Shown here in pieces: positions 8,183 through 63,579 of a stretch of 64,000 nucleotides of DNA (positions within the stretch are counted from its first letter, which is position 1; the number at the start of each line of letters is the position of its first letter). The stretch is from Nibricoccus aquaticus (GTDB lineage Bacteria > Verrucomicrobiota > Verrucomicrobiia > Opitutales > Opitutaceae). The stretch lies in contig NZ_CP023344.1 in the NCBI RefSeq assembly GCF_002310495.1, positions 3,179,501 to 3,243,500 on the forward strand. The letters are read 5' to 3'. The notes under the pieces were generated by a model that ran no database searches, was not told where the DNA came from, and worked only from the letters and a program-made list of their open reading frames with translations. The position numbers and the translations under genes are program-made.

Positions 8183-8256
8183 GTGTCGGAGTGAGGCTGA
8201 GGTGGCGGCAAGAAGACGTGAGGCGAGTCGGGATGCCCCGTGTGTGCGTGAATGTT

Positions 8257-38685: not shown

Positions 38686-38837
38686 GAAGCAGGTGTTGAG
38701 AAGGCCCGGAGTGACGTGTGATCACGCGGAGAGACGCGACGGACTGCGGGGTGGGCAGGACGAAACGATTCCAGTGATGCGGTCTCTCGCTTAGCACGGG
38801 AGATGCCCCGGGTGCCGCGAATCGGGTGCGTGGAGAA

Positions 38838-38876
38838 GGATTCAACACGCGGGGCGGGTGATTGTTTTTAATTCAA
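38838..38876 (-). promoter_or_regulatory. Bipartite direct-repeat motif upstream of amidase 14
   Basis: On the minus strand TTGAA (38876-38872) is followed, 31 bp on, by a second TTGAA within TGTTGAATCC (38847-38838). The same arrangement (TTGAA, offset 31 bp, ATGAA within TGATGAATT) lies upstream of both TonB receptor genes, at 59268-59305 and 62360-62397. An A-rich tract follows the first half-site in all three. A 31-bp offset is about three helical turns, as for a regulator bound on one face. Operator role is inferred. Confidence 0.45.
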
Positions 38877-39035
38877 GCCGGCGGGCTTGATGAGGCTGTG
38901 CTTTCGGAAGTTGGGGTTGCGCCTGGCGTGTTGATCCGAACCATCCCGCGTTCGTACATGACGCGTTTCTTGCTCACTCCACCTTAATTTTTTCCGCTGA
39001 CCCAGCGTCGAGCGGTGGGTGAGTGCGGTGTCTGC

Positions 39036-39047
39036 CACAATTGTGGT
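39036..39047. promoter_or_regulatory. 12-bp perfect palindrome upstream of the SulP gene
   Basis: CCACAATTGTGG, 133 nt before the SulP ATG. Candidate site for a dimeric regulator; no regulator gene is nearby. Confidence 0.3.
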
Positions 39048-39180
39048 AGCGCGCTTGTTCTAATACGACGGTCCTGTGAGGGACGCTGTTACCTGCTTCG
39101 CCGGTTTAACTGTGGCGTGTTTACCGCGCTGTTTCTTTCCAGGGCTTCTGCCCACATTTTAACTTTTAATCAGATCACTC

Positions 39181-40674
39181 ATGTCCACTCAGACCTATAA
39201 ACATCAATGGTTCGGCAACCCGGTCCGCGATCTCGTAGCCGGCACTGTTGTCGCCCTCGCGCTCATTCCCGAGGCCATCGCCTTCTCCATCATCGCAGGC
39301 GTCGATCCTCGGGTCGGCCTCTATGCCTCGTTCTGCATAGCGGTCGTGATCGCCTTTGTCGGCGGGCGCTCGGGCATGATTTCGGCCGCCACGGGCGCGA
39401 TGTCGCTGCTCATGGTCACGCTCGTGAAGGAGCACGGGCTGCAATACCTATTTGCGGCCACCTTGCTCACGGGCGTCATTCAGATCATCGCCGGTTTTCT
39501 GAAACTGGGTAATCTTATGCGCTTCGTGGCCCGGTCCGTGGTGATCGGCTTCGTCAATGCGCTCGCGATCCTCATCTTCCTTGCGCAGCTGCCGGAGTTC
39601 ACGGGGCAAGGCTGGCTCATGTATGCCTGCGTCGCGGGTGGACTCGCGATTATCTACGGCCTGCCGCGGCTGACCAAGGCGGTGCCTTCGCCGCTGGTGT
39701 GCATCGTCGTGCTGACGGGGCTCTCCGTGTGGCTGGGGTGGGGCGAAAACAATCTGCTGCGCACGGTTGGAGATATGGGCGCACTGCCTTCGACGCTTCC
39801 GGTGTTTCTCTTCCCCGACATTCCGTTCACGTGGGAAACGTTGATGATCATTCTGCCTTACTCGTTGCCGCTGGCGGTGGTGGGTCTGCTGGAGTCGTTG
39901 ATGACGGCGACGATCGTGGATGATTATACGGATACGGGCAGCGATAAGAACCGGGAATGCACGGGGCAAGGCGTGGCCAACATCGCCTCCGGTTTATTCG
40001 GCGGCATGGCCGGATGTGCGATGATCGGCCAGACTGTCATCAACGTGAAGTCCGGCGGACGCGGACGGCTCTCCACGTTTTGGGCGGGGGCATTTTTGCT
40101 GTTTCTCATTGTGATGCTCGGTGACTGGGTGGCGCGCATCCCGATGGCTGCGCTGGTCGCGGTGATGATCATGGTGTCGATCGGCACGTTTAGTTGGGCG
40201 TCGCTGAAAAACATCCGGGTGTATCCGAAGTCGGCCACGTTTGTGACTTTTGCCACGGTCGCGATCGTCGTCGGCACGCATAATCTGGCGCTTGGCGTGG
40301 GGGCGGGCGTGCTCCTGAGCGCGTTGTGCTTCGCGGCGAAGATCGCGCGGCTGCTGCATGTGACCTCGCATTTGAGCGCGGATGGGTCGGAGCGAATTTA
40401 CCACGTGCGCGGGCAGCTTTTTTTCGCGTCCACGACTGCGTTCGTAGCGGCGTTCGATCTACGGGAAAAACTTCAGAAGGTGACGCTCGATGTCACTCAT
40501 GCGCATTTTTGGGACACGACCTCGATCAACGCTCTGGATAAGATCGTGATCAAATACCGCCAGCAAGGTGTCACCGTCGAGCTGGTGGGACTGAACGCTG
40601 CGAGCAAGGCGATCGTCGAACGGCTGGCGATCTATGACCGGACGGGAGCGGCTGATGCGGTATCCGCGCACTAA
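39181..40674 (+). CDS. SulP-family anion transporter with STAS domain
   Basis: 497 residues. The SulP membrane domain opens with [34 protein letters not shown], holds the conserved [28 protein letters not shown] loop (about 258-285) and many hydrophobic helices. It ends in a STAS domain (about 395-490) with [19 protein letters not shown]. The family moves sulfate, bicarbonate or, in E. coli DauA, C4-dicarboxylates including aspartate. Which anion applies here cannot be read. It is the only plus-strand gene, lies inside the amidase array, and converges on amidase 15 with 5 nt between stops and no terminator. Import of dicarboxylates released by asparaginase-type enzymes is an attractive but unproven idea. 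Confidence 0.93.
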
Positions 40675-40679
40675 ACGGA

Positions 40680-42251
40680 TCAGTAGGTGATCTTTTCGCC
40701 TGTGAGGGCGGGTGTGGTGGCGGGGGACTTGCGGTGCGCGGAGACGGCTTCGTAGCCGCTGGCGACGGTGATCAATTTTGGCTCGGAGAAGGGGCGGCCG
40801 AGGAACTCCATCGCGAAGGGCATGCCGTCGTCGAAGAAGCCGCCGGGGACGATGATGGCGGGGAGGCCGGTGACGGAGGCGAGCTGGTTGCGCGATTCCT
40901 GGCGGTTCGTTTTAGGCATGCCGGCGAGGTCCTCGATGCGGTAGGTGCGGAAAGGTAGGACGAGGGCATCGAGTTCATATTTGTCCATGACGCCGATGAG
41001 AGCGTCGCGGAGGACCTTCTGGTGTTTGAGAGCGGCGGCGAACTGCGGGTTGCGATCGGGAGCGCCGAGCTTCGCGCTGGCGACGATGGCGGGCTTCACG
41101 AGGTCGGGCGCTTTTTCGATCATCTCTTTCACGGAGCGGATGGGCGCGGACGGCGGAAGGGCAGAGAGGTATTTGTCGATGGCGGAGGCGACCTCGTAGG
41201 GATAGGCGGAGGCGTCGACTTGGGTTTGATGGAGGACGAGGCCGGTGAGGACGGGATCGACGATGACGGCGCCGGCTTTCTTCATGTCCTCGATGGCTTT
41301 TTCGCCGAGAGCAATGCCGTCGGTGTGGAGAGGGCCGGAGCGGATCATCTCGCGGAGGACGCCGATGCGGGCGCCTTTGAGGCCGTCTTTTTTGACGAAG
41401 CTCGTGTAGGGCGCTTCGGGGAGTTTTCCGACGGAAGCCTGAGTAGCGAGGTCGGCGGGATCGTATCCGGCAATCGAATCCAGGACGGCGGCGCAGTCGT
41501 AGACGGAGCGGGCCATGGGGCCGCCGTTTTCCTGGGAAGGTGAGCTCCACATCATGCCGGTGCGGGAGACGAGGCCGTGGGTGGTGGAGAAGCCGACGAG
41601 GTTGTTGAGGGCGGTGGGAATGACGATGGAGCCGGTGGTGTCGGAGCCGAGGCCGACGGTGCCGAACCATGCGGCGATGGCGGAACCGGTGCCGGAGCTG
41701 GAGCCGCCGGGGAATTTTTTCAGGTTGTACGGAGTGAGCACCTGGCCGCCGAGGGTGCTGCCGCCGCTGGAAGCGACGCCGTACCAGTCGGATTGATTGA
41801 GCTTCGCGAGAACGATGGCTCCGGAGGCGCGGAGGCGGGCGATGACGAAGGAGTCGCGGGAAGGCTGCGACGTTGCCATGGGCTTGAAGCCGCCGGAGGT
41901 GGGCATGTCGGCGGTGTCGTAGACGTCCTTGGCGAGGACGACGATACCGTGCAGCGGGGAGCGAGGGCCTTTGGCTTTACGCTCGGCGTCGAGGGCGCGG
42001 GCTTCGGCGAGGGCGGCGGCGCGGTCTTTGAGGGTGATAATGGTGTTCAGTGCCGGGCCCTTTTTATCGTAGGCGTCGATGCGGGCGAGGGAGAGCTGGA
42101 CGAGTTTTTCGGAGGTGAGCGCGCCGGAGTCGAAGGCGGCGTTGAGGTCCGAGATCGTTGCTGTGGAGAGATCGAACTGCGCGGCGCGCAGTTGCAACAG
42201 GAGAAAAAGCCAGAAGGAGGCCAGAAGGCAGAAGCGGATAGAGCGGAGCAT
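40680..42251 (-). CDS. Secreted amidase-signature hydrolase 15
   Basis: 523 residues. Leader MLRSIRFCLLASFWLFLLLQLRAAQ contains imperfect CAGAAGG heptad DNA (42211-42235). Triad: Lys108 (LAKDVYDTAD), Ser184 (GGSSSG), Ser208 in GSDTTGSIVIP; the Arg that normally follows GGSI is Val. Shares KDV-x-DT-DMPT-GG with amidases 17 and 18. Tail TPALTGEKITY. It is the last gene of the run that begins at 56306 and meets the SulP gene tail to tail. Confidence 0.92.
   Translation of the reverse strand: MLRSIRFCLLASFWLFLLLQLRAAQFDLSTATISDLNAAFDSGALTSEKLVQLSLARIDAYDKKGPALNTIITLKDRAAALAEARALDAERKAKGPRSPLHGIVVLAKDVYDTADMPTSGGFKPMATSQPSRDSFVIARLRASGAIVLAKLNQSDWYGVASSGGSTLGGQVLTPYNLKKFPGGSSSGTGSAIAAWFGTVGLGSDTTGSIVIPTALNNLVGFSTTHGLVSRTGMMWSSPSQENGGPMARSVYDCAAVLDSIAGYDPADLATQASVGKLPEAPYTSFVKKDGLKGARIGVLREMIRSGPLHTDGIALGEKAIEDMKKAGAVIVDPVLTGLVLHQTQVDASAYPYEVASAIDKYLSALPPSAPIRSVKEMIEKAPDLVKPAIVASAKLGAPDRNPQFAAALKHQKVLRDALIGVMDKYELDALVLPFRTYRIEDLAGMPKTNRQESRNQLASVTGLPAIIVPGGFFDDGMPFAMEFLGRPFSEPKLITVASGYEAVSAHRKSPATTPALTGEKITY
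42211..42235. repeat. Imperfect heptanucleotide repeat (CAGAAGG family)
   Basis: Three CAGAAGG/C units with one 4-nt interruption; on the minus strand they encode part of the hydrophobic leader of amidase 15. Related arrays at 43781-43815 and 49303-49330. Confidence 0.5.
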
Positions 42252-42256
42252 TTGGA

Positions 42257-43831
42257 TCAGTAGGTGAATTTTTCGCCGGAGAGTGCGGGGACCATGGCGG
42301 GATGCTGGCGGCGGTGCGTGGCTTGTTCGTAGGCGTAGCCGAGACGGAAGAGCACGGGCTCGCTCCAGGGACGGCCGAGGATCTCCATCGCGATGGGGCC
42401 ATTTTCTTTTTTCGTGTAGCCGGTGGGAACGATGAGTGCGGGAAGACCGGTGATGGAGCTCACGGCATTGTCTTTTCCGGCGAGTCCTTTTTCGAGATGT
42501 GGCTCGGGCGGCAGCGTCTTGAACGGGTAGACGAGCGCATCGAGTTTGTATTTGTCCATGAGCGCGACGAGTTGGGCGCTGAGCGATTCCTGCATGTCGC
42601 GACGGGCGAGGTAGTCGGCGTGGTGGGTCAGCGAGCGAAACTCGGCGTAGCCTTTGCGGATGCTGGGTTTCACGAGGTCACCGAAGGCGACGAGGTCGTC
42701 CATGTTTTTGATGACGGCATTGGGGCCGAGGCGGCGGAAGTAGAGGTCGTAGGAGAACTGCGCTTCGTGGAAATTCGTTCTCATGCCGCCGTGGGAATCG
42801 AGGAATTTGAAGACGTCGTAACCGAGCGAGAGATCGTCGAGGACGATGGCGCCCGAGGCCTTCATGTCGGTTATCGCGGTTTCGATGAGGGCGGTGCCTT
42901 CGACGTGTTTATCGCCCTTGCGGAAAAGATCTCGAAGCACGCCGATGCGCGCGCCTTTGAGGCCATCTTTTTCGAGGAACTGCGTGTAAGAACCCTTTGG
43001 CATGCGGCCGGGAGCGGTGATGGTGAGGAGATCCTCGGCGTCAAAACCAGCGACGATGTCGGTGAGGGCGGCGACATCGTAGACGGAGCGGGCCATAGGG
43101 CCGCAGCGTTCCTGGGTGAAAGAAGTCATGACCTGACCGGCGCGGGGGATGAGCCCACGGGTAGGAGCGAGGCCGACGATGGAGTTGTTGGACGTGGGAT
43201 TGCGGATGGAGACGCCGGTTTCGCTGCCGAGTCCTAGTTGCGCGAATACGGCGGCGACGGATGCGCCGGTGCCGCCGGAGGAGCCACCGGGGGTGAGTTC
43301 GGCGTTGTAGGGATTGAGCGTGCGGCCGAGGACGGTGCTCTGGTCGCCGGGTTTGGGGACCCCGAACCAGTCGTCCATGTTGACCTTGGCGAGGATGATG
43401 GCGCCGGCCTCGCGGAGGCGTTTCACGACGGTGGCGTCGAGCGTGGGCTGGGAGTTTTTGAGCGGAAGAAAGCCGGCGGAGGTCGGCATGTCCTTCGTGT
43501 CGTAGAGGTCTTTGAGGACGACGGGAACGCCGTGTAGCGGAGAGCGCGGGCCTTTGGTCTTGCGCTCGGCATCGAGGGCGCGGGCGGTGGCGAGCGCCTC
43601 GGTGTTAAGCGTGATGACGGCGTTTATTTTTGGGCCGGCCTTGTCGTAGGCCTCGATGCGGGCGAGGTAGAGCTGCGTGAGTTTTTCGCTGGTGAGGGCG
43701 CCGGATTCGAAAGCCGCGTTGATGTCGGCGACGGTGGCGGTTGAGAGATCGAACTGCGCTGCGCGTAACTGCAGTTGAGGGAGAAGCCAGAGGCCAGATG
43801 CCAGGAGGCAGAAGCGGAAGGAACGAAGCAT
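42257..43831 (-). CDS. Secreted amidase-signature hydrolase 16
   Basis: 524 residues. Leader FRFCLLASGLWLLPQLQLRAAQ comes from heptad repeats. Triad: Lys107 (VLKDLYDTKD), Ser184 (GGSSGG), Ser208 (GSETGVSIRNP). The FAQLGLGSETG-SIRNPTSNNSIVGL stretch links it to amidases 11, 17 and 18. Tail VPALSGEKFTY. Gaps of 3 nt upstream (asparaginase-type gene E) and 5 nt downstream. Confidence 0.92.
   Translation of the reverse strand: MLRSFRFCLLASGLWLLPQLQLRAAQFDLSTATVADINAAFESGALTSEKLTQLYLARIEAYDKAGPKINAVITLNTEALATARALDAERKTKGPRSPLHGVPVVLKDLYDTKDMPTSAGFLPLKNSQPTLDATVVKRLREAGAIILAKVNMDDWFGVPKPGDQSTVLGRTLNPYNAELTPGGSSGGTGASVAAVFAQLGLGSETGVSIRNPTSNNSIVGLAPTRGLIPRAGQVMTSFTQERCGPMARSVYDVAALTDIVAGFDAEDLLTITAPGRMPKGSYTQFLEKDGLKGARIGVLRDLFRKGDKHVEGTALIETAITDMKASGAIVLDDLSLGYDVFKFLDSHGGMRTNFHEAQFSYDLYFRRLGPNAVIKNMDDLVAFGDLVKPSIRKGYAEFRSLTHHADYLARRDMQESLSAQLVALMDKYKLDALVYPFKTLPPEPHLEKGLAGKDNAVSSITGLPALIVPTGYTKKENGPIAMEILGRPWSEPVLFRLGYAYEQATHRRQHPAMVPALSGEKFTY
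43781..43815. repeat. Heptanucleotide tandem repeat (CAGANGC family) in a leader
   Basis: Units GAGAAGC, CAGAGGC, CAGATGC, CAGGAGG, CAGAAGC on the plus strand. The minus strand encodes CLLASGLWLLPQ, the signal-peptide core of amidase 16. Confidence 0.75.
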
Positions 43832-43834
43832 GGC

Positions 43835-44941
43835 TCAGTACTGGTCGAAGATGCGTTTGATCTCGGCGAGGTCGGTGGTCTTGGTGAGCGCGAGCTGGAG
43901 GAGGATGCGGGCTTTCTCGGGCGGGAGATTATCGCCGGGGACGACTTTGGCCTCGGTGCGGCGGGGAGTTTCCTGGACGCGGCCGCCGCGGGTGCGGGCG
44001 GTGGCGACGATGATGACGCCTTTTTCCTGGGCGCGTTTGATAGCGTCCTCGGTCGTGCGCGGGACGGAGCCGGCACCGGTGCCGTCGACGACAATGCCTT
44101 TGACGCCGTTGGCGACCATGGCGTCGACGATGTAGCCGGGGGTGCCGTTGTAGCCGTAGACGATTTCGACGTCGGGGAGCGCGGCGGGGAGCTTCGCGAT
44201 GTTGAACTCGGACTTGAAGGTGTGGAGGCGGGTGGGCTCGGCGTAGAATTTCACGATATCGGGATCGGCCACGCCGATGACGCCGAGGTCGATGCCCTGA
44301 AAGGTGTGGACGCGGTAGGCGCTGGTCTTGGTGACGTCGCGGATGGGAAACACGTTTTGATTCATGGCGTGGAGAACGCCTTTGCCGGTGGCGGCCTGGG
44401 TGGCGGCGACGCGGACGGCGTTGACCATGTTGAGGGGGCCATCGCCGCTCATGCCGGTCCAGGGACGCTGGGCGCCGACCATGACGACGGGCTTCTTGAT
44501 ATTCACGACGAGACTGAAGAAGTAGCCGGTCTCGACCATGGTGTTAGTGCCATGAGTGACGACGATGCCGTCGACGGAATCGTCGGTGGCCAGTTCCTGG
44601 ATACGCTTGGCGACCTTGAGCCAGTGAGCCTCATCGATCTCGGCGTTTTCCGGCGGGCGGACATCTTCCGGCGTCACGCGGGCGAAGAGAGCGAGTTCAG
44701 GAAGAGCGGTGACCCAGTCTTCCGGGCTGAGGCGGGGAGCGCCGTAGTTGGTGACGTTGAGGCGTTCCTTGGCGGTGCCGGAGATGGTGCCGCCGAGGGA
44801 GAGGAGGCGGATGCGCGGGAGCGAGGAGGCGAGGCCGGGCGGTGTGATGGGCGGGATTTCCTGCGCGGATGCGCAGGGAACGAGCAGTGACGAAGAGCTG
44901 AGAACGAGTGACGTGGCGAGAAGGACGGTGGAAATTTTCAT
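43835..44941 (-). CDS. Exported asparaginase-type amidohydrolase E (HGTNT variant)
   Basis: 368 residues; signal STVLLATSLVLSSSSLLVPCASAQ. Thr52 (SLGGTI), Thr132 and Lys205 (DVTKTSAYR) are present; Asp90 is Asn133 (THGTNTMVE). The substrate-loop segment GAQRPWTGMSGDGP and YNGTPGYIVDAMVANGVKGIVVDGTGAG match genes B and D. Ends IKRIFDQY. It is directly followed by amidases 16 and 15, as gene B is by amidases 12 and 11. Confidence 0.88.
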   Translation of the reverse strand: MKISTVLLATSLVLSSSSLLVPCASAQEIPPITPPGLASSLPRIRLLSLGGTISGTAKERLNVTNYGAPRLSPEDWVTALPELALFARVTPEDVRPPENAEIDEAHWLKVAKRIQELATDDSVDGIVVTHGTNTMVETGYFFSLVVNIKKPVVMVGAQRPWTGMSGDGPLNMVNAVRVAATQAATGKGVLHAMNQNVFPIRDVTKTSAYRVHTFQGIDLGVIGVADPDIVKFYAEPTRLHTFKSEFNIAKLPAALPDVEIVYGYNGTPGYIVDAMVANGVKGIVVDGTGAGSVPRTTEDAIKRAQEKGVIIVATARTRGGRVQETPRRTEAKVVPGDNLPPEKARILLQLALTKTTDLAEIKRIFDQY

Positions 44942-44977
44942 GAGGGATGGGCCGGGGGTGATGACGTTACCGGGGTC

Positions 44978-46081
44978 TCAGTATTCGTTGAAGATGCGCT
45001 GGAGCTGGCGCGGATCGGAGGTCTTGGTGAGCGCGAGACGCAGGAGGATGCGGGCTTTTTGAGCGTTCAGGTTGTCGGCGGTGATGATGCCGCGACCGGC
45101 ACCGCGTTCGCTGAGGGTGACGCGACCGGCTCCCTTGCGGTCGCTTTGGACGATGACGACGCCTTCGGCCTGAGCGGCGGAGAAAGCGCGGGCGTAGGAC
45201 GGGGAGCTGTCGGCGAAGACGATGCCTTTGGCGCCGGCCTTCGTGAGGGCGAAGATGGGCGCGGAGCTGGCTTCTTGATAACCGTAGACGATGTCGACCT
45301 GAGGGAGTGTCTCGATCTTGGATACGTCGAACTCGCTGGTGACGGTGTGGCGGACGAGCGGGTTGCGGTAGAAGACGACGCGGTCGGAGTCGACGAAGCC
45401 GAGCGGCCCGAGTTCGCGGGCGACGAAGGTCTCGACGTGGTAGGTATGGTTCTTGGTGACGAAGCGGGCTGAGTGGATGGTGTCGTTGAGGACGACCATC
45501 ACGCCTTTGCCGGCGGCATCGGGCGTGGCGGCGGTGCGGACGGCGTTGTAGAGATTGTACGGGCCGTCGCGGCTGATGGCGGTGAACGGGCGCATGGCGC
45601 CGACCACGACGACGGGCTTGGCGGAGTTGACGGTGAGCTGGAGGAAGTAGGCGGTTTCCTCGAGCGTGCCGGTGCCGTGCGTGACGACGGCGCCCGCGAC
45701 ATCGGGACGGGCGAGCGTGGCGTTGATGGATTTGGCGAGTTTCAGGAGGAGCTCTGTGGTGACGCCGCCGGAGCCGATGTTGCTGATCTCGGTGACCTCG
45801 ACTTTGGCGAGAGTTTTGAGCTCGGGGAGATCGGTGAGGAGTTCGTCCGGTGTGACGCGACCGTCATTATACTCGGAAAGGGTCAGGCGATGTTTGCCTT
45901 TGCTTTGAATGGTGCCGCCGGTGGTGAAGAGAGCGACGGTAGGAAGTTCGGCCGCGGTGGAAACAGCCACCGCGGCGAACGACCAACATCCGACGAACAA
46001 CAACGACCGTCGGAAAAGGGAGAGCGCACGCGCCGCGCGAGCGACGTGGGCGAGCGAGAGCGAAGTGAGGGAGAAGGTCAT
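44978..46081 (-). CDS. Exported asparaginase-type amidohydrolase F (HGTGT variant)
   Basis: 367 residues; leader FRRSLLFVGCWSFAAVAVSTAAE. Paralogue of gene C: LFTTGGTIQSKG, GRVTPDELLTDLPEL, EISNIGSGG. Thr57, Thr137 and Lys210 (FVTKNHT) are kept; the Asp of HGTDT is Gly138. The MNDEI-SARD stretch is LNDTIHSARFV. Ends LQRIFNEY. 3 nt after amidase 17 and 36 nt before gene E. Confidence 0.88.
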   Translation of the reverse strand: MTFSLTSLSLAHVARAARALSLFRRSLLFVGCWSFAAVAVSTAAELPTVALFTTGGTIQSKGKHRLTLSEYNDGRVTPDELLTDLPELKTLAKVEVTEISNIGSGGVTTELLLKLAKSINATLARPDVAGAVVTHGTGTLEETAYFLQLTVNSAKPVVVVGAMRPFTAISRDGPYNLYNAVRTAATPDAAGKGVMVVLNDTIHSARFVTKNHTYHVETFVARELGPLGFVDSDRVVFYRNPLVRHTVTSEFDVSKIETLPQVDIVYGYQEASSAPIFALTKAGAKGIVFADSSPSYARAFSAAQAEGVVIVQSDRKGAGRVTLSERGAGRGIITADNLNAQKARILLRLALTKTSDPRQLQRIFNEY

Positions 46082-46084
46082 GAT

Positions 46085-47695: not shown

Positions 47696-47723
47696 GGGAC
47701 TGATGGGATTTATATCGGAGGCG

Positions 47724-47745
47724 CGCACCAGAGGTGCGGCCCTAC
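47724..47745 (-). repeat. REP-like hairpin
   Basis: CGCACC and GGTGCG arms around AGA, then GCCCTAC on the plus strand. It fills the gap between amidases 18 and 17, just before the start of the latter. Confidence 0.55.
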
Positions 47746-47750
47746 AAGGA

Positions 47751-49367: not shown

Positions 49368-49376
49368 GGAGGATGC

Positions 49377-50975: not shown

Positions 50976-51204
50976 GGCGTGGGTAAAGGAGATGCACGCA
51001 AAGCGAGAACAGGGCCGTAGAGCTGACTAAAACGGTGCCGCGGGACGGATTGAGAAATTGGATGCGGAGCGCCGGAGGAGTTGAGGGAAAGTGAAGCGGG
51101 AAGGCGGATGCGGGCGGGGTAGCGCGTTGTTGGGGGTGCGCCACGGTTTTGCGCGACGGGGGGCGTCACGCCTCCATCGGAAGACGATGCATGGGAGGCG
51201 TGGA
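50976..51204. other. 229-nt spacer between amidases 20 and 19
   Basis: Holds a small perfect stem GGCGT-C-ACGCC at 51162-51172 within G- and C-rich flanks, resembling a degenerate REP-like unit. No gene and no clear terminator. It is the largest gap within the 56306-40680 run. Confidence 0.4.
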
Positions 51205-52812: not shown

Positions 52813-52833
52813 GTGAGAGATGTTTTTTATTTT

Positions 52834-52850
52834 CCGGATTTTTTATCCGG
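52834..52850 (-). promoter_or_regulatory. Leader hairpin before amidase 20
   Basis: CCGGAT and ATCCGG arms with a 5-nt T (A on minus) loop, ending 21 nt before the ATG and followed on the minus strand by an A-rich stretch (AAAATAAAAAAC). It could influence ribosome access; no T-run, so not a terminator in the coding direction. Confidence 0.35.
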
Positions 52851-52886
52851 CGTTCGGATGCGGTGAGTGAGGGCGATGCGTTTCGA

Positions 52887-54548: not shown

Positions 54549-54602
54549 GGGGTGGAAAAGCGTGCCGTGGCGGTGGTGAGTGATGCGCGGGAGACGGTGT
54601 GG

Positions 54603-56306
54603 TCAGTAGGTGATGGTTTCGCCGGGGAGGGCGGGGGCGTGTTTGGGGACGCGGATGTTTTTCGACGCCTGCTCGTAGGCATAACCGAGGGCGAGGAGCT
54701 TGGGTTCGCTGAAGGCGGTGCCGAAGAAGCTGATACCGATCGGCAGGCCGTTGGAGGTGAAGCCGGCGGGGACGATCAAGTCGGGGAAGCCGGAGAGATT
54801 AGCGTAGTTGGTCGCTGAAGGGCGGGCGTCGGCACCCGCGGCGGGAACTTCACCGATGAGCGCAGGGCGGCGCGGGCTCGTGGGATAGACGATGGCGTCG
54901 AGCTTCTGGCTATCGAGAAGGGCCTGCATCGTGTCGCGCACGAAGGCGAGGCCGTGGGTCTTCGCGGCGAGGTAAGCAGGATCGGTCAGCGGAGCGGCCT
55001 TGGCTTCCTGGCGGTAGAGGGCGAGGCGGCCGGGGTTTGGCCAGTAGCCCTCGGGGGAGACGGCGCTGATTTTTTCGGAGAGGGCGAGGAGGTCGTCGAT
55101 GTTCTTTGGATACCCGGGCTTGAGGGTGGCGAGGTAGTCGGCGATCTGGGCTTTGAACTCGGGGCGGCGGATGGCGTTGTAGAGATCGCCGCGCATACCG
55201 AGGAGGATAGGCGGGTACTTGATGTCCACGAGGATGGCGCCCTGGGCTTTCATGACGGCGAGGGCGGACTCGATGGTGACATCGACCTCGGGGTCCTGGC
55301 CCATGAAGTCGCGGGCGACACCGATGCGGGCACCCTTGAGGGAGTCCTTCTTGAGAAAGGCGGTGTAGTCCTTGGCGACTTTACCGACGCTCTTCTTGGT
55401 GGCGTCGTCGAGCGGGTCAGGCTCGCCGGCGGTGACGTTGAGGGAGATGGCGATGTCATACACGGAGCGGGTCATGGGGCCGCCGGTGTCGAATGATAGT
55501 GCGAGCGGGATGATGCCCGCGCGGGAAAGGAGGCCGTGAGTGGGTTTGAGACCGACGATGCCGTTGCTGGTGGAAGGGCCGCGGATGGAGCCGCCGGTGT
55601 CGGAGCCGTATCCGAGCGGCGAATAATAGGCAGCGATGGCGACACCGGTGCCTCCGGAGGAGCCGGAAGGCGTGCGATCAAGGGCGTGAGGATTGTGCGA
55701 CTGGCCGATGAGGGAACTCATCGCGCCACCGGAGGCGAATTCGGAGGTGTTGACCTTGGCGATGATGATGGCGCCAGCCTCGCGGAGTCGGGCGGTGATG
55801 GTCGCGTCTTTGGGCGGTATCGAACCTTTCAGGCCGTAGAAACCGCCCGTGGTGGGGAGGTCGAACGTGTTATAGTTATCTTTGTAAACAACCGGGATGC
55901 CGTGGAGCGGGCTGCGGACTTTTCCGGATTTGCGCTCGGCGTCGAGCGAGCGGGCTTCGTCGAGGGCTTTGGGGTTGAGCGTGATGACGGCGTTGAGCGC
56001 GGGCTCGTAGGCTTTGACGCGGGCGAGGTAGAGGCTGACGAGTTTTTCGGACGTGAGAGTACCGGCGGAGAATGCCTTATTGAAGTCTTCGATGGTGGCG
56101 GAGGACAGGCTCACCTCCGCTGCGCGAAGCTGAGCTGGAGTGACCAATGACCAGTGACCAATGACCAATGCGCAGGCGAGGAGGGCGGGGCGGAAAAGGC
56201 GGAAGGCCGAATTCTGAAGGCCGAATGACGAAGGGCTGGAGGCGGACGGAGAACGCTCAACGTTTAACGTTGAACGCTTAACGCTCAAGGGGAGGAGGCG
56301 ATTCAT
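54603..56306 (-). CDS. Amidase-signature hydrolase 22 with repeat-derived leader, head of the second run
   Basis: 567 residues from ATG 56306. The frame is open further upstream to 56537 but would cross the terminator at 56372-56401 and the receptor gene, so the short start is chosen. The ~63-residue leader is made of three heptad families and includes the same CALVIGHWSLVTPA core as amidase 2. Triad: Lys142 (VYKDNYNTFD), Ser216 (GSSGG), Ser240 (GSDTGGSIRGP). Tail APALPGETITY. It heads a run of ten genes down to 40680; the promoter must lie within about 65 nt upstream or in the leader DNA. Confidence 0.9.
   Translation of the reverse strand: MNRLLPLSVKRSTLNVERSPSASSPSSFGLQNSAFRLFRPALLACALVIGHWSLVTPAQLRAAEVSLSSATIEDFNKAFSAGTLTSEKLVSLYLARVKAYEPALNAVITLNPKALDEARSLDAERKSGKVRSPLHGIPVVYKDNYNTFDLPTTGGFYGLKGSIPPKDATITARLREAGAIIIAKVNTSEFASGGAMSSLIGQSHNPHALDRTPSGSSGGTGVAIAAYYSPLGYGSDTGGSIRGPSTSNGIVGLKPTHGLLSRAGIIPLALSFDTGGPMTRSVYDIAISLNVTAGEPDPLDDATKKSVGKVAKDYTAFLKKDSLKGARIGVARDFMGQDPEVDVTIESALAVMKAQGAILVDIKYPPILLGMRGDLYNAIRRPEFKAQIADYLATLKPGYPKNIDDLLALSEKISAVSPEGYWPNPGRLALYRQEAKAAPLTDPAYLAAKTHGLAFVRDTMQALLDSQKLDAIVYPTSPRRPALIGEVPAAGADARPSATNYANLSGFPDLIVPAGFTSNGLPIGISFFGTAFSEPKLLALGYAYEQASKNIRVPKHAPALPGETITY
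56141..56170. repeat. Heptanucleotide tandem repeat (TGACCAA family) in a leader
   Basis: Four units identical to those at 12089-12118, in a 49-bp block (56137-56185) that matches 12085-12133 exactly. Encodes VIGHWSLVT of amidase 22. Confidence 0.85.
56202..56236. repeat. Heptanucleotide tandem repeat (GAAGGCC/GAATTCT family)
   Basis: Units GAAGGCC, GAATTCT, GAAGGCC, GAATGAC, GAAGGGC; the minus strand encodes FGLQNSAFRL in the leader of amidase 22. Confidence 0.65.
56252..56288. repeat. Heptanucleotide tandem repeat (AACGCTN family)
   Basis: Units AACGCTC, AACGTTT, AACGTTG, AACGCTT, AACGCTC, then AA. Encodes LSVKRSTLNVERS at the start of amidase 22; differs from 12224-12260 by one base. Confidence 0.85.
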
Positions 56307-56371
56307 GGGAAGCGATGATGCGGACGGATGTGGGACGGCTGGGTGTGCCCGGAAAGTGGTTACACAAGAAA

Positions 56372-56401
56372 AAGGCGGCCGGGTTTGGGACCGGCCGCCT
56401 T
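56372..56401 (-). terminator. Factor-independent terminator of TonB receptor 1
   Basis: 11-bp perfect arms (AAGGCGGCCGG / CCGGCCGCCTT) with an 8-nt loop, followed on the minus strand by TTTCTT after the stem's own TT. It starts 12 nt after the receptor stop and separates the receptor from the amidase run. Confidence 0.9.
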
Positions 56402-56413
56402 GGGAGGCTTGCG

Positions 56414-59167
56414 TTAGAAGAAGCGTTTTACGGCCAGTTCGTAGCTGCGTGGGATGCGGGCGCTGACCCAGTAGAAGGCACCTTTGTTGAAGTAGAGCTT
56501 GTCGAAGACGTTCGCCACGTTGAGGCGGACTTCCCACTGCTCGTTGCTCCAGGTGATGCCGGCGTCGTGCGCGGTGGCTTCGGGGACGTTGTACTGTTTC
56601 AGGCGGTCCGTGCTGTAGGAGCCCTGGTGATAAACGGTCCAGCGGAGATCGATATTTTTGACCGGCGAGTAGGTGGCGGTGAGGTTGAGCACGCGGTGCG
56701 GGAAACCTTCGACCTCGTTGTAGATCGTGTTGGCCTGCTCGGTGGAGATGGTGCTGGAGAGGCGACCGCCGTATCCAAATGCTTCGGCGGGGATGAGGAC
56801 GTTGCCGGCGGCATCGACGACGTCGGGGAAGCCGAAGAAGCGGGCGCTGGCGGTGACGGCGCGGGAGGAGCCGGGCAGGTAGGTGTTTTTGCTCCAGTTG
56901 CCACCGGCGAGGAAGCTGAGCTTCTGGTTCACGATCCAGCGGAGTTCGAATTCGATACCTTCACCGAGCGTGGCGCTGAGGCCGCCGTCGCCGTCCTCCG
57001 GATTAAAGGAGGCGCGGGTCTGACGGTAGACGGAGAGCGTGTTGAAGAGGCGACCCTTCATCAGCGTGCTCTTGATGCCAGCTTCCTTGAGTTCGGTACG
57101 GGCGAGGAGGTTGGTGCGGACGTTGGCTTGAGCGACGGCGCCAGTGGAAGCGTTGACGAGAAGCGAGGCGTTGTCGGCGTAGCTCAGGTACGGACGGAGG
57201 CCGAAGGGCGCGCGGTAGGTGAGCGAGACCGAGTACGAGTAGTCGTGGTCGGAGCCTTTGACGACGGACGCGGTGGAGATGCCACCGTTGCCGTTACGCA
57301 GGAAAAGACCGGCGGGCACGTAGCTGTTGGCGTCAACATGGTCAGTGCGGCCACCGACGAAGAGGTCGAAGAGTTCGAAGAACGAAAAATCCGTGGCGAA
57401 GCCGATACCGGCGGTGGTCTGTATCGAGTCCTCAGCGACGGATTTCTGCGAACCGTTCCAGGTGGGATCGAGGAGGATGGAGCTGAAGGTGTCGTTGGGG
57501 GTGAATCCCACCATCAGGCTGCGGCGAAAATCGATGTCGGCGGTATTGTCCGTCATGCGGCCGCCTTCGTAGTAGTGGAAGTTGGCGGAGGCGAAGGAGG
57601 TGGCGGTGAGCCAATCGCCGGGGATGGCCCACTTTTTGGTGACGGTGATTTTTTCCTCCGCGGTGAAGACCTCCTGGTGTTGCGAGAAGGGATTGCGGCC
57701 GAGTTTCACCTGGTCGTGGTAGTCGGCGAGGAACTGGGCCTTGATGGTGAAGTCGGGGTTGGAGTCATTCACCAAGTCGAAGAACGTGGTGTAAACGCGC
57801 GCTTCGTAGAAATCTTCGCCGAAGGATTTGGAGTAATCGACGTCGACGAGCTGCCAGCTGGAGGGGTCGAGGTCGAAGGCGCGGGGCATGTAGAACGCCA
57901 CTTTCGCGTTCGCGGTGTTGGGCATGCCGTTCGCGAGGCTGCTGCCGTAGATCATGAGTTGATGACCCTGGCGGGCGTTACCGGCGAGGTCGGTGTAGCC
58001 GGCGTTGAACTGGGCCATGGTGATGGTGCCACCGTTAACGGCGCCGCCCTGCCAGGGCATGTTGCGGAAGAGCGGGGAGTTGTTCTGGCCGATGTAGCGG
58101 AGGGAAGGATTGACGTTGCCGGTGCCGGTGACGCCAAGCTGCTGGCTGCCGGGGGCGTAGTTGCCGGGGCGGTTGACGCCGTCGCCGTAGTAGGAGGTGA
58201 GGATTTCAGTGTCACCGATGTAACCGTCGCCGTTGGTGTCGAGTTTGTAGCTGAAGCCGCCGTTCCAATATTTGCCTTTGTCGATGAGCTCCTGAGTGGT
58301 GCGGTTGATGCCGCCGGGGAGGCCGCCGCGGGAATACTGGGAGACGCCGCCGGTTTCCATGCGCCACTTGTCAGTGATGTCGAGGGTGAGAGTAGCCTGG
58401 ACGATCTCCTGCTGGTCGCGTTCCTGGCGGATTTTTGGAGAGTTATTATAGTAACTGCCGGAGTTCTCCATGTAACCGAAGACGTGGTAGCCGCCCTTCT
58501 TGCCGCCGATCTGAATGGGGCCGCCGACTTCGGCGGTGACGATACGTTTGTCAAAGGAGCCGATGGTGAAGCTCGTGTTGCCCGTGGGCTTTTCGAGGTA
58601 TTTGCCCGTTTTGCCGAGGCGGGCGGTCTTGGGATTGAAGTTCATGTAGCCGCCGATGCGGCCGAGGCCGAAGATCGGGGAGGGGAGACCGCGGACGATC
58701 TCGATGGAGTCGTTGGCGGCGAAGACGGTGCGCCAGTTGCCCTGCGGGTCGATGCGGCGCATGCCGCGAAAGTAGAAGTCAGAGGTGACGTTGCGGACGT
58801 TGACGTTGCCCTGAAGGCCGTACCGAAAGTTGGAATACGTGCTGGGGACGAGGCGGGCGATGTCTTCGGAGTTGCGGATGGAAAGTGAGTCGATGAGGTC
58901 GGAGCTGAGGACGGTCACCGAGCGGGGCGTGTCCACGAGGGCTTTGGAGAGACCGAGGACGCCTTCGATCGGCTGCGTGGGCATGATCAAATTGACGTCT
59001 TCACCGGCGACGGTCTCGAGGTCGTCTAGTTTCACGGCGGGTTCGTCGGCGGCCGGTGCGGGTGTCTGGGCGAAAATGGAGGGACTGCTGGCGAGGCAGC
59101 AGATGGCGGCGAAGAGCAGGCGGGACTGCCGTCGGAGGTGAGTGTCTTTGGTGCGCGATGTGTTCAT
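56414..59167 (-). CDS. TonB-dependent outer-membrane receptor 1 (siderophore-receptor-like)
   Basis: 917 residues from ATG 59167; the frame extends to 59482 but crosses the neighbour's terminator and leader region, and only this start puts the signal peptide (RRQSRLLFAAICCLASSPSIFAQ) first. A TonB-box-like segment (VKLDDLETVAGEDVN) precedes the plug (TPRSVTVLSSDLID through VEIVRGLPSPIFGLGRIGGYMNFNPK). The 22-strand barrel ends YELAVKRFF with a terminal Phe. An EF-hand-like loop DTNGDGYIGDTE is at 310-321. Such receptors import siderophores, cobalamin, glycans or other large solutes using TonB energy; the ligand is unknown. It neighbours the amidase array and shares an upstream motif with amidase 14. 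Confidence 0.93.
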   Translation of the reverse strand: MNTSRTKDTHLRRQSRLLFAAICCLASSPSIFAQTPAPAADEPAVKLDDLETVAGEDVNLIMPTQPIEGVLGLSKALVDTPRSVTVLSSDLIDSLSIRNSEDIARLVPSTYSNFRYGLQGNVNVRNVTSDFYFRGMRRIDPQGNWRTVFAANDSIEIVRGLPSPIFGLGRIGGYMNFNPKTARLGKTGKYLEKPTGNTSFTIGSFDKRIVTAEVGGPIQIGGKKGGYHVFGYMENSGSYYNNSPKIRQERDQQEIVQATLTLDITDKWRMETGGVSQYSRGGLPGGINRTTQELIDKGKYWNGGFSYKLDTNGDGYIGDTEILTSYYGDGVNRPGNYAPGSQQLGVTGTGNVNPSLRYIGQNNSPLFRNMPWQGGAVNGGTITMAQFNAGYTDLAGNARQGHQLMIYGSSLANGMPNTANAKVAFYMPRAFDLDPSSWQLVDVDYSKSFGEDFYEARVYTTFFDLVNDSNPDFTIKAQFLADYHDQVKLGRNPFSQHQEVFTAEEKITVTKKWAIPGDWLTATSFASANFHYYEGGRMTDNTADIDFRRSLMVGFTPNDTFSSILLDPTWNGSQKSVAEDSIQTTAGIGFATDFSFFELFDLFVGGRTDHVDANSYVPAGLFLRNGNGGISTASVVKGSDHDYSYSVSLTYRAPFGLRPYLSYADNASLLVNASTGAVAQANVRTNLLARTELKEAGIKSTLMKGRLFNTLSVYRQTRASFNPEDGDGGLSATLGEGIEFELRWIVNQKLSFLAGGNWSKNTYLPGSSRAVTASARFFGFPDVVDAAGNVLIPAEAFGYGGRLSSTISTEQANTIYNEVEGFPHRVLNLTATYSPVKNIDLRWTVYHQGSYSTDRLKQYNVPEATAHDAGITWSNEQWEVRLNVANVFDKLYFNKGAFYWVSARIPRSYELAVKRFF
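58205..58240 (-). other. EF-hand-like Ca2+ loop coding segment in TonB receptor 1
   Basis: Encodes DTNGDGYIGDTE, matching the canonical 12-residue EF-hand loop at positions 1 (Asp), 3 (Asn), 5 (Asp), 6 (Gly) and 12 (Glu); position 9 is Gly. Confidence 0.6.
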
Positions 59168-59267
59168 TAGTGTGTGGGCTTCTGGTTGCTTGATGGCTGC
59201 TGATGGAAGCGGGCGAGGCTTAGCCGAACGGATGCCAAGGCAGGGAATGTTCCCGGGGGTTTCGGAT

Positions 59268-59305
59268 AATTCATCAAGGGGCGAGAGGCAGGGATTTTTG
59301 TTCAA
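59268..59305 (-). promoter_or_regulatory. Bipartite direct-repeat motif upstream of TonB receptor 1
   Basis: Minus strand: TTGAA (59305-59301), A-rich tract, then TGATGAATT (59276-59268), the half-site offset being 31 bp. Ends 100 nt before the start codon. Same layout as at 62360-62397 and 38838-38876. Confidence 0.5.
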
Positions 59306-59412
59306 CCTGTGCAGCGAGAAGAAGTGCTGCGGCGTGGTGCGGGCAGCGGATGTGGAGGGCGGCGGGTGGTAACGAAACGAGTCGAAGACATGTAGTGGGT
59401 GTTTGGGCACGA

Positions 59413-59443
59413 AAAACCCCGCCTCGGGTGGAGGCGGGGTTTT
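59413..59443 (-). terminator. Bidirectional terminator of TonB receptor 2
   Basis: 13-bp perfect arms (AAAACCCCGCCTC / GAGGCGGGGTTTT), 5-nt loop, followed on the minus strand by a T-run ending TTTTTCG. About 63 nt after the receptor stop. Confidence 0.92.
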
Positions 59444-59505
59444 GAGGAGGATAGGGGGCTGGCCGGGTGAGCGGAGCCCCATGCGACTTGGATAAGTCGC
59501 GGTCC

Positions 59506-62265
59506 TTAGAAGCGACGGGTGACGGACAACTCGAAGTTGAGCGGGAGGCCGGGCTGGAGGAGGGTGCCGCCGAAGGAGCCGTTGTTAGGCACCCAGTATT
59601 CCTCGTCGAGGGCGTTGCGGACGGTGAGCGAGGCGCGCCAGAGCTTATGGTCGTAGGCGACCGTGAGGTTGTGCGTGAGGTAGCTCGGGAGCGTCAACAG
59701 GTCGGGGAGTTCGGAGGAGGCGGCGACGGAGTCCACGTAGTTGGCGCTCCAGCTGGCGCTGAAGCCGCTGTCCCACGAGTAACCGACAAAGGAGCCGAGC
59801 ACCCAGCCGGGGTACTGGCCGAACTTGTCGTATCGGGCATCCGAATTCGGGATGGTGACGAAGGCGTTGCCGCCGTAGAGGAAGGCGTTGGCGGGGACGA
59901 TGACGTTGCCGTTGGCGTCCTTGATGTCGCTCACGCCGAGATAATTCGCGGTGACGGCGGCGGTGCGGGTCTGGGTCGGGTCGAGCTTCACGCGATCAAT
60001 CATGAGGCGGGTGGCGCTGGCAATGAAGGACCAGTGGCGGGTGGGGAGGTAGCGCAATTCGAGCTCCATGCCCTTGTTTTGATTGGAGCGGTTGTAGCTC
60101 TCGCCTTCCTGGATGACGTTACTGCTGCGGATCTGGTCGAAGAAGGAGGTGGAGTAGAAAAGTTTGTCCTTAAAAAACTTTCCTTTGAATCCGGCTTCCT
60201 TGAGCGAGGCTTCGGCGAGAATGGCACCGGTGAGGACGTTGGAGTAGGAGACTTCCTGGAAGGTGCCGGTGAGGGCGGAGGAGGCTTTGGCCTGTGTGTA
60301 GTACGGAGTGAAGCCGGCCCACGGAGTCTTTAAGTTGACGCTGATGGAGTGGGAGAGGGCGTTGTCCTTGTTGCTGATGCTGCGCGGGGCGCTGTGGACG
60401 CCGGTGGAGGCGGCGGCGACATTCGAGCCGGTGGCGGTGGTGCCGCCGCGGGCGTACTGGGCGCCTTCGTCGGTGGTGATGTCGATCCAGTCTTTGCGGA
60501 CACCGCCGGTGATGCCGAGGCGTTCCCAGAGGGTTAGATCGACCATGGCGCCGAGGCCGGTCTCCATGTAGTCGGAGGAGACATTGGAGCTGATGGGCTC
60601 GCCGGTCGCGAAGGAGCTATCGCCGGTGCGCACGAAGGAGGCGAAGGTATCGGTCGGCGTGTATCCACGGACCAGATCGCGACGGTGGTCGTAATCGCCA
60701 CTGGTCGCGATGCGGAAGGCATCAGAGAAGCGGAGATTGGCGGAACCGAGGAGATTCAGATCAACCCAGTCGGGGAGTTTGTTGAGGACGGGGATATTGG
60801 TGGCGTTGCGGGTGGCGGTGTACTTGGCCTCGACGACGCTGATCTCCTGGCGTTGATTGAACGGGAGCTGCGATTCCTTCTCCTGGTATTGATAGTCGTA
60901 GAAGAACTGGAGCTTCTGGGTGGCGTCGGTATCGGAGTCGTCGATGAAGTCGAGATAGCCGGTGTGAGTATAACCGTCGGCCTTTTCCTCGATAGCTACG
61001 AGAGACCAGTCACGACCGACGTACTGGAGTTCAGCGGGATTGAGGAAGAAGCCGGCGGGGGTGTTGTTGAGGTTGGTGATGAGCGAGGTGGCGGCAGAGC
61101 CGTCGGCGAAACGGATGGGGCCGGCGGCGAGGATGGCCTGGCCTTGCGCGGTCGCGGCGACGGAGGCGTAGGCGGGCGTGCTGAGCAGATTGATGAGGGT
61201 CTGCGGGGCACCGATGATGGAGTTGGCGCCGCGGAGCTGGCTGACTGTGCCGAAACTCACTGAGAGCGGACGGGCGGGGGTGGTGCCGGTGAGGGAGCGG
61301 CTTTGTTGTATTTCGCGTTCGGATACGACGCCGTCGCCGTTGGTGTCGAGATTCACAAGGGCCGAGCCGCGGAGGTAGGTACCGGCGTCGAAGGAGGTCT
61401 GGTCAACGCGATTGGCGCCGGCCTGGCCGGCGTTGATGGCGCGCTGATAGATGACACCGGCTTCGAGGCGCCAGGAGGGATTGAGGTTGAGGGCGAGAGA
61501 AGCCTGGAGGACGCGGTCGCGCTGGAAGTTATCCTCGAAGTAGCTCTCGGAGTCGTTGACGAGACCGAAGACCTGGAAGCCGCCGGACATGCCCTTGATG
61601 GAGAGAGGCTGGGCGTAATTGAACTGGGCTTCGACGCGGTCGTAGGAGCCGATGACGCCGCTGAAGCTGCCGCTGGAGGTTTCGAGGTAGCGGCCGGTGG
61701 TGCCGCGCACAGACTTGGGAGTGTAGTTGGTGTAGCCGCCGATGCGGCCGTTGCCAAAGATGGGCGAGGGAGGTCCGCGGACGATCTCGACGTTTTCCCA
61801 CATCGTAATGACGTTCCGGATATTTCCCTGGGCATCGATGCGTTTCATGCCGCGCAGGTAGGTGTCAGCGGGGAGGCCGCGGAGCTGGGTGGAGCCGGCG
61901 ATGCCCCAGCGGTTGACGGTGTAGGTGCCGGGGACGATGCGGGAGAGCTGGTCGCCGTCGCGGATGCCGATCTTATCGACGAGGTCGGAGCTGATGGTGG
62001 TGACGGAGCGGGGCGTGAGGACGAGATCTTTGGAGAAACCGAGCGCGCCCTGGAGCGGCTGGGTCGGCATGATCATGTTTGGGTCTTCGCCGGCCTCGGT
62101 CTCGAGGTCTTCCATTTTAACGACGGGCTCGGAGGCTTCGGTGGCGGGAGCCGGAGTGGTGGCCTGCGCAAAAGCGGCAGAGCTGCCGGTGAGGCAGCAG
62201 AGGGCGGCGAACAGCAGGCGCGCGCGGCGCCGGCGATGGATGTCTTGGATGCGTGTTAGGTTCAT
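59506..62265 (-). CDS. TonB-dependent outer-membrane receptor 2 (siderophore-receptor-like)
   Basis: 919 residues from ATG 62265, chosen because the signal peptide (RRRRARLLFAALCCLTGSSAAFAQ) then begins at residue 10; an open frame reaching 62454 adds no family sequence. TonB-box-like VKMEDLETEAGED precedes the plug (LTPRSVTTISSDLVDKIGIRDGDQL to VEIVRGPPSPIFGNGRIGGYTNY). The barrel ends LNFELSVTRRF. An EF-hand-like loop DTNGDGVVSERE lies at 307-318. Paralogue of receptor 1, most alike in the signal, plug and leader DNA. Expressed as its own unit with a leader motif and terminator. Confidence 0.93.
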   Translation of the reverse strand: MNLTRIQDIHRRRRARLLFAALCCLTGSSAAFAQATTPAPATEASEPVVKMEDLETEAGEDPNMIMPTQPLQGALGFSKDLVLTPRSVTTISSDLVDKIGIRDGDQLSRIVPGTYTVNRWGIAGSTQLRGLPADTYLRGMKRIDAQGNIRNVITMWENVEIVRGPPSPIFGNGRIGGYTNYTPKSVRGTTGRYLETSSGSFSGVIGSYDRVEAQFNYAQPLSIKGMSGGFQVFGLVNDSESYFEDNFQRDRVLQASLALNLNPSWRLEAGVIYQRAINAGQAGANRVDQTSFDAGTYLRGSALVNLDTNGDGVVSEREIQQSRSLTGTTPARPLSVSFGTVSQLRGANSIIGAPQTLINLLSTPAYASVAATAQGQAILAAGPIRFADGSAATSLITNLNNTPAGFFLNPAELQYVGRDWSLVAIEEKADGYTHTGYLDFIDDSDTDATQKLQFFYDYQYQEKESQLPFNQRQEISVVEAKYTATRNATNIPVLNKLPDWVDLNLLGSANLRFSDAFRIATSGDYDHRRDLVRGYTPTDTFASFVRTGDSSFATGEPISSNVSSDYMETGLGAMVDLTLWERLGITGGVRKDWIDITTDEGAQYARGGTTATGSNVAAASTGVHSAPRSISNKDNALSHSISVNLKTPWAGFTPYYTQAKASSALTGTFQEVSYSNVLTGAILAEASLKEAGFKGKFFKDKLFYSTSFFDQIRSSNVIQEGESYNRSNQNKGMELELRYLPTRHWSFIASATRLMIDRVKLDPTQTRTAAVTANYLGVSDIKDANGNVIVPANAFLYGGNAFVTIPNSDARYDKFGQYPGWVLGSFVGYSWDSGFSASWSANYVDSVAASSELPDLLTLPSYLTHNLTVAYDHKLWRASLTVRNALDEEYWVPNNGSFGGTLLQPGLPLNFELSVTRRF
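61312..61347 (-). other. EF-hand-like Ca2+ loop coding segment in TonB receptor 2
   Basis: Encodes DTNGDGVVSERE: Asp1, Asn3, Asp5, Gly6, Ser9 and Glu12 all fit the EF-hand/dockerin loop pattern. Placed at nearly the same residue number as the loop in receptor 1. Confidence 0.65.
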
Positions 62266-62359
62266 TCGTGTGTGGTGTGGGCCTGAGGGTGGTTCAGGAG
62301 GCGAATGACCATTAGCGCGATGGGTGCCAGCACGTGCGCCGTGACGGCGGCTTTTGAAA

Positions 62360-62397
62360 AATTCATCACCGGCTGGCGGGTGTAGATTATTTTTCAA
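62360..62397 (-). promoter_or_regulatory. Bipartite direct-repeat motif upstream of TonB receptor 2
   Basis: Minus strand: TTGAA (62397-62393), A-rich tract, then TGATGAATT (62368-62360), offset 31 bp; ends 94 nt before the start codon. Confidence 0.5.
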
Positions 62398-62456
62398 TGT
62401 GAGCGGCCTATAGCGGGACGATGAAATGAGTACGTAGTTGAGATACGGGCACAAAA

Positions 62457-62482
62457 AATCCCGCTCGGTAAGGAGCGGGATT
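62457..62482 (-). terminator. Factor-independent terminator of the coiled-coil/TPR operon
   Basis: 10-bp perfect arms (AATCCCGCTC / GAGCGGGATT), 6-nt loop, followed on the minus strand by TTTT. It begins 26 nt after the stop of the last gene. Confidence 0.92.
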
Positions 62483-62508
62483 GTGACTGTGTTGGGAGTG
62501 GCCTGAGA

Positions 62509-63018: not shown

Positions 63019-63030
63019 GAGGAAAGGCGA

Positions 63031-63567: not shown

Positions 63568-63579
63568 AGGAGGAGATTT

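Follow-up and report, generated by a model that had tools for sequence, protein, structure and literature searches.

What regulates the long run of amidase genes in Nibricoccus aquaticus, and does this run form one regulon with the TonB receptor genes beside it? The question arises in a stretch of 64,000 nucleotides (contig NZ_CP023344.1, positions 3,179,501 to 3,243,500; hereafter the window, whose own numbering is used below). An earlier note had described a bipartite motif of TTGAA and TG[AT]TGAAT words on the minus strand upstream of amidase 14, receptor 1 (R1) and receptor 2 (R2), and had taken it as evidence for a single regulon. Analysis of the sequence indicates that this motif is the upstream half of a larger predicted enhancer-plus-promoter module, which goes beyond what had been described. 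Very probably the motif is a paired enhancer for a putative enhancer-binding protein at predicted sigma-54 promoters, which would switch uptake and amide hydrolysis together.

The motif words are indeed found at the three places, on the minus strand at 38876-38840, 59305-59269 and 62397-62361, the spans given earlier exceeding the observed motif limits by 1-2 bases at each site. The half-site offset of 31 bp was also reproduced: TTGAA and [AT]TGAA are exactly 31 nt apart at all three sites, and the offset from TTGAA to TGWTGAAT is 29 nt. A scan of the genome (4,730,447 bases) for TTGAA-N24-TG[AT]TGAAT, the check that had been called for, returned three exact matches, all at these places, and none in the reversed control. 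With the gap freed to 12-42, eight matches were obtained, three at gap 24 and five across the other 30 gaps. Allowing up to two mismatches gave 69 matches against 11 in the reversed control; imperfect copies of the motif words are therefore common. As the pattern was derived from the sites themselves, its rarity alone is a weak proof, and a separate column-match test was therefore performed. The R1 and R2 leaders agree at 51 of 86 columns, in line with the earlier remark that they are homologous and hence not independent. These 51 identical columns were slid across 127,828 placements in the window, and the amidase 14 leader emerged as the top non-self match with 34 of 51 columns (mean 12.5, sd 3.2), a value reached by none of 2000 shuffles of its intergenic region. 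The next matches, both 28/51, lie at 742 and 10014 on the minus strand and show the same layout; for the 10014 site, one of 2000 shuffled controls was as good.

Alignment of the R1, R2 and amidase 14 leaders revealed an ungapped register that extends from the first box as far as GGCA[TC]C-N7-GCTAA, with GG and GC placed as in sigma-54 -24/-12 promoters. We then scanned for a relaxed module, defined as TTG[AC], [AT]TGAA 31 or 32 nt on, and then a -24/-12 element scoring at least 14. All five relaxed box pairs in the window are followed by such an element, at 37 nt for 62397, 59305, 38876 and 10014, and at 47 nt for 742. Since the window holds only 15 elements of this score on both strands, about 0.006 qualifying elements are expected per candidate by our estimate. 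In 20 kb of flanks, one of four box pairs has a -24/-12 element, at 47 nt, before ExbB. The cluster thus holds six own sites, whose box-to-promoter distance is 37 nt (four sites) or 47 nt (two sites), one helical turn apart. GG and GC stand at the right spacing in all six (target form TGGCAY-N7-GCW; scores 14.0 to 15.5), and the portion of PMC3844500 that tabulates known sigma-54 promoters gives the same -24/-12 form. The -24/-12 element in the same register, the two further window sites (10014 and 742) and the one just outside had been missed by the earlier note. The sites, with the basis of each call, are as follows.

62361 to 62397, minus strand: paired TTGAA/ATGAA boxes, 31 nt apart, before TonB receptor 2 (pattern scans).
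62312 to 62329, minus strand: -24/-12 element TGGCACCCATCGCGCTAA of receptor 2, 37 nt below the near box (leader alignment, scoring).
59269 to 59305, minus strand: paired TTGAA/ATGAA boxes before TonB receptor 1 (pattern scans).
59220 to 59237, minus strand: -24/-12 element TGGCATCCGTTCGGCTAA of receptor 1, at 37 nt (leader alignment, scoring).
38840 to 38876, minus strand: paired TTGAA/TTGAA boxes before amidase 14 (pattern scans).
38791 to 38808, minus strand: -24/-12 element GGGCATCTCCCGTGCTAA of amidase 14, at 37 nt (leader alignment, scoring).
9979 to 10014, minus strand: paired TTGAG/TTGAA boxes before amidase 8257-9891 (column match, relaxed-module scan).
9929 to 9946, minus strand: -24/-12 element GGGCACATGCCGTGCTTG of the same site, at 37 nt (scoring).
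707 to 742, minus strand: paired TTGCC/TTGAA boxes, the probable sixth site, before an HlyD-type RND adaptor (column match, relaxed-module scan).
647 to 664, minus strand: -24/-12 element CGGCATATCCTCTGCTGA of the RND adaptor site, 47 nt below the near box (scoring).
Locus L154, position 3677 (genome 3246976, about 3.5 kb outside the window), minus strand: ExbB site, 47 nt above CGGCATATCACGTGCTAA (relaxed-module scan).

At the ExbB site, a second and equally good -24/-12 element lies at 36 nt. A sigma-70 reading was also considered and rejected: TTGAA/TGAAT as -35/-10 would need a 25-nt spacer, and no site with the sigma-70 consensus (TTGACA, 16-18 nt, TATAAT) was found in 54500-63600 or 38600-39250.

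To what extent does the module recur in relatives? The composite pattern, which joins the box pair and the promoter in one, was scanned in 252 genomes of the family and gave 11 sites in five genomes, with none in the reversed control. Five of the 11 are the own sites, and four of the remaining six head receptor, Exb or amidase genes: in genome G104 one site precedes ExbB and one a receptor leading into amidases, and in G110 one precedes a receptor and one an amidase. Genome G003 just misses the composite pattern and has the same register before its receptor. In this genome (69% complete; L162 7993-13584), the receptor and one amidase homologue are each broken into three pieces, by decay or an assembly error, and the promoter module is intact. 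Across 494 kb of relatives' loci, some of which overlap and which were chosen for cluster genes or pattern matches, so that related sites are not independent, eight of 31 box pairs have a promoter, at 36, 37, 37, 42, 47, 48, 48 and 48 nt. The two distance clusters among relatives differ by one helical turn; together with the own distances of 37 and 47 nt, the helical phase between boxes and promoter is kept except for the one pair at 42 nt. A coincidence, in which a pattern was fitted post hoc to three sites, would find some footing in the definition of the pattern from just these sites and in the 69 matches at two mismatches; each of the controlled tests (column match, composite scan, shuffles, relaxed module and, below, the promoters of receptor relatives) speaks against it. 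Chance is strongly disfavoured, and we give it almost no credence.

The gene order in genome G215 bears on how the sites arose. There, an amidase 14 homologue (84% identical) comes directly after the receptor, accompanied by other amidases, an asparaginase and a homologue (76%) of 27161-28948. Amidase 14, which had been put forward as an independent witness, is therefore not strictly so, because a receptor leader may have been the source of its own leader; independence is more credible for the sites upstream of amidase 8257-9891, of ExbB and of the RND adaptor. It is likely that one receptor-led operon grew and split in the own genome, with the fragments keeping or capturing copies of the module. 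Taken further, the leaders could be alike by descent only, promoter copies having spread as the array grew and the boxes being leftovers with no role. The homology of the R1 and R2 leaders and the place of the amidase 14 homologue in G215 agree with this account, but the same boxes and phases also occur before unrelated genes (ExbB, the RND adaptor) and in other genera, and the sequence between the boxes has diverged. We consider descent alone very improbable.

The promoter half of the module is spread more widely. From a search for receptor 2 in the 252 genomes, 29 loci among the best relatives were taken for reading; a separate related-locus search with receptor 2 as the query returned no match. 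The strict pattern [TG]GGCA[CT]N7GC[TA] lies upstream in 24 of the 29 loci and in none of L084, L093, L098, L101 and L104, compared to no match in 137,172 bases of the reverse strand and two in 93,672 bases of the forward strand beyond the upstream part of the same loci. It falls within 250 bp upstream in 21 of 28 receptor-2 relatives, a count that omits L080 (a broken receptor gene, with its site just 5' of the gene) and includes the shorter upstream flanks of L104 and L106. A -24/-12 score of at least 14.5 within 250 bp was reached in 20 of these 28, in none of their reverse strands (0/28) and in none of 560 random windows. By eye, the receptor-2 relatives mostly lack the TTGAA pair. For ExbB, 19 homologous loci were analysed (eight Opitutaceae, four Verrucomicrobia, four Akkermansia muciniphila, one Rariglobus and two given only as bacterium; L225 among them is a G215 contig). 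The forward test found the promoter in 10 of the 19, against 0/19 on the reverse strand and 4/380 in random windows. Paired boxes occur in only two of the 19, one of which (L232) is a contig of the already known G110, so the promoter is of wider spread than the paired enhancer. We consider it evenly balanced whether sigma-54 is the family's standing switch for this TonB-receptor clade, often together with ExbBD-TonB, on which one lineage built a 67-kb amide locus (importer, energizer, about 30 amide hydrolases and efflux) under a single dedicated, unlinked activator acting via the paired TTGAA enhancer.

Some receptor relatives carry other words near the promoter. Many of the loci L081-L105 have GCCAATC[GA] in common a short way past the predicted start, below and close to the -12 box, and many have GAATTAAT some 30 nt above the -24 box; the window's leaders contain neither. 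In L147, L106 and L107, which belong to another receptor branch, a GTATAC word directly abuts the sigma-54 element upstream of the -24 box, doubled as GTATAC-N6-GTATAC in L106 and L107; it may serve as a repressor site.

The machinery for such promoters is encoded in the genome. RpoN is encoded once (PF04552, 1.5e-58), and the sigma-54 interaction domain PF00158 has 11 matches, eight of them above 80 bits. Seven of these eight enhancer-binding proteins possess a receiver domain, so the activator is probably a response regulator; one of the eight lacks the GAFTGA loop. None of the eight scanned proteins passed the cut-off of the NtrC equivalog (best TIGR01818 score 494.6 against 558.6). The enhancer-binding protein of locus L166 (genome 2232474) is the best match in the cluster-gene genomes G104, G215 and G110 (73-74% identity) and G003 (56%), and the best match to none of 15 loci from G105, G106 and G150. 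This co-occurrence was compared among eight groups in seven genomes, with G215 counted as a carrier though its receptor lacks the canonical pair. The L166 protein is a candidate only, and we do not name it as the activator. A CheX neighbour lies beside two L166 orthologues (one above and one just below the Pfam cut-off).

In the mechanism that we propose, a pair of activator dimers would occupy the TTGAA boxes on the same helix face, 31 bp or three turns apart, assemble into an AAA+ ring and contact the waiting sigma-54 polymerase via DNA looping, the box-to-promoter distances of 37 or 47-48 nt keeping the helical phase. Six units would be served: ExbB (with ExbD, ExbD and TonB), receptor 2, receptor 1, the amidase 14 run, amidase 8257-9891 and probably the RND adaptor. 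As the same module precedes six cluster genes, uptake and amide hydrolysis would switch on together. Sigma-54 would read the promoters and the enhancer-binding protein the boxes, with amide or nitrogen supply as the presumed signal; this link to nitrogen is drawn from the frequent service of sigma-54 in nitrogen supply and from enzyme classes that free ammonia or amines from amides. The layout resembles the NtrC/NRI enhancer of glnA (glnAp2), where a -24/-12 promoter likewise has a pair of activator sites above it; the two strong sites of glnA are about 32 bp, or three turns, apart. Compared to glnA, the boxes here are TTGAA boxes and not the NtrC site, lie nearer to the promoter and head receptors, Exb genes and amide hydrolases. 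According to passages in PMC7408454, PMC4740811 and PMC3844500, NtrC at glnA acts on the sigma-54 polymerase by looping.

Several observations weigh against this paired-enhancer mechanism. By hand count, the 37-nt class has its box centres at about -92 and -61, the 47-nt class at about -102 and -71. A passage of PMC3844500 places most enhancers 70-150 bp upstream; with its near box at about -61, the 37-nt class falls short of this range, which is the main mechanical doubt. Clear dyads are seen by eye in few boxes; the near box of G110 reads TTGA-N6-TCAA, and most others do not have such a form. The nearest enhancer-binding protein gene is about 130 kb from the window. Genome-wide, the -24/-12 pattern alone is not enriched (35 matches, including R1, R2 and the receptor at 562692, against 50 in the reversed control), and only four of 47 own receptors score above 14 (R1, R2, 562692 and 3579288; reverse-strand maximum 14.0). 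In the relaxed-module scan, box positions were searched once the spacing was already known. Among relatives, the composite site of G112 lies beside no cluster gene, that of G100 has no cluster-gene match and is taken as chance, the pair at 42 nt is a background pair out of phase, in G215, the closest receptor relative, the far box is present and a second one at 31 nt is lacking, and the boxes are scarce at ExbB loci. A rival account has sigma-54 promoters at which the TTGAA boxes bind some other regulator, such as a repressor or DNA-bending protein, the enhancer-binding protein acting from elsewhere or without specific sites. The spread of -24/-12 elements far beyond the boxes (20/28 receptor relatives and 10/19 ExbB loci, with boxes at 2/19) and the little dyad symmetry would suit such an arrangement, but the position of the boxes, their three-turn pairing and the one-turn shift between 37 and 47-48 nt fit an enhancer facing the polymerase. 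We regard this second regulator as unlikely and retain the paired enhancer.

Sigma-54 control of a receptor does not by itself imply membership of this regulon, as the receptors at 562692 and 3579288 lack paired boxes by eye. Of the two boxes, the receptor at 1119370 has only the far one, together with a weak -24/-12 element. Near the receptor at 562692, two strong sigma-54-like elements without paired boxes lie 1.9 kb apart (L172 4233 and 6090, minus strand).

Altogether, the six own sites, their shared sigma-54-type promoter and the recurrence at homologous genes in some relatives support one regulon of array and receptors as the best reading. The predicted regulon also takes in the ExbBD-TonB operon and probably the RND efflux operon. 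A hunch of co-regulation is thereby turned into a concrete, testable promoter model. If true, it would tie outer-membrane nutrient import to sigma-54 control in a group for which no description of such control was found: the open-licence literature yielded none of a sigma-54/RpoN regulon with TonB receptors, the amidase signature or ExbB in Opitutaceae or Verrucomicrobia. The closest account is PMC12316311, a survey of sigma-54 regulons across phyla, in whose matching parts sigma-54 promoters are placed upstream of COG0154 for Proteobacteria and upstream of TonB for Flavobacteriia, and no TonB receptor, ExbB or amidase regulon is given for Opitutia. The locus would at the same time be an analogue, based on amides, of polysaccharide utilization loci, which likewise set a dedicated outer-membrane importer beside many hydrolases; here, amide hydrolases replace the glycosidases and the promoter is of sigma-54 type. 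Starting from the enhancer sequence, one could trace the regulator and, through it, the substrate.

The genes headed by the sites were assigned by Pfam for the scanned proteins (amidase signature, asparaginase, TonB plug), and the main features are as follows.

59506 to 62265, minus strand: TonB receptor 2, 919 aa, with a Plug domain (Pfam).
56414 to 59167, minus strand: TonB receptor 1, 917 aa, with a Plug domain (Pfam).
56401-56372: terminator-like hairpin (sequence).
40680 to 56306, minus strand: amidases and asparaginases between receptor 1 and the SulP gene (Pfam).
39181-40674, plus strand: SulP gene.
10167 to 38679, minus strand: amidase/asparaginase run headed by amidase 14 (37156-38679) (Pfam).
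7046 to 9891, minus strand: amidase (8257-9891) and acetamidase/formamidase (7046-8182) (Pfam).

The amide-hydrolase array at 7046-56306 is unusually large, with 22 amidase-signature genes, at least four asparaginase-family genes and one acetamidase/formamidase. PF01425 gave 28 rows genome-wide, 23 of them in the window, two of which are one gene. The asparaginase family was assigned by Pfam at 14508, 33307, 43835 and, weakly, 27161; the genes at 32131, 34432 and 44978, outside the Pfam-scanned set, resemble asparaginases by appearance only. The minus-strand run is interrupted by the plus-strand SulP gene, and amidase 14 is the first gene past this break. A terminator-like hairpin precedes R2, and by eye also R1 and 9891, so most modules lie at expected beginnings of transcription units. 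By hand count, the predicted start is 44 nt upstream of the start codon for R1, 38 nt for R2, 103 nt for amidase 14 and 29 nt for amidase 8257-9891.

About 240 nt separate the ExbB site from the ExbB gene downstream of it; two ExbD-like genes and then TonB come next (ExbB, TonB and one ExbD by Pfam). A sigma-54-like element without a box pair, CGGCACCGCCCCTGCTTA, is located at 6425-6442 on the minus strand, 28 nt before the start of a Band_7 gene (4627-6414). The site at 742 precedes the HlyD-type adaptor of 390 residues, which starts near 577 and runs past the window end; beyond it, a frame of 1,052 residues resembles an RND permease (named by eye). At L154 3589-5178 on the plus strand, a gene for an outer-membrane efflux protein runs divergently from the ExbB site, so that, with the RND adaptor at 742, efflux parts flank the cluster.

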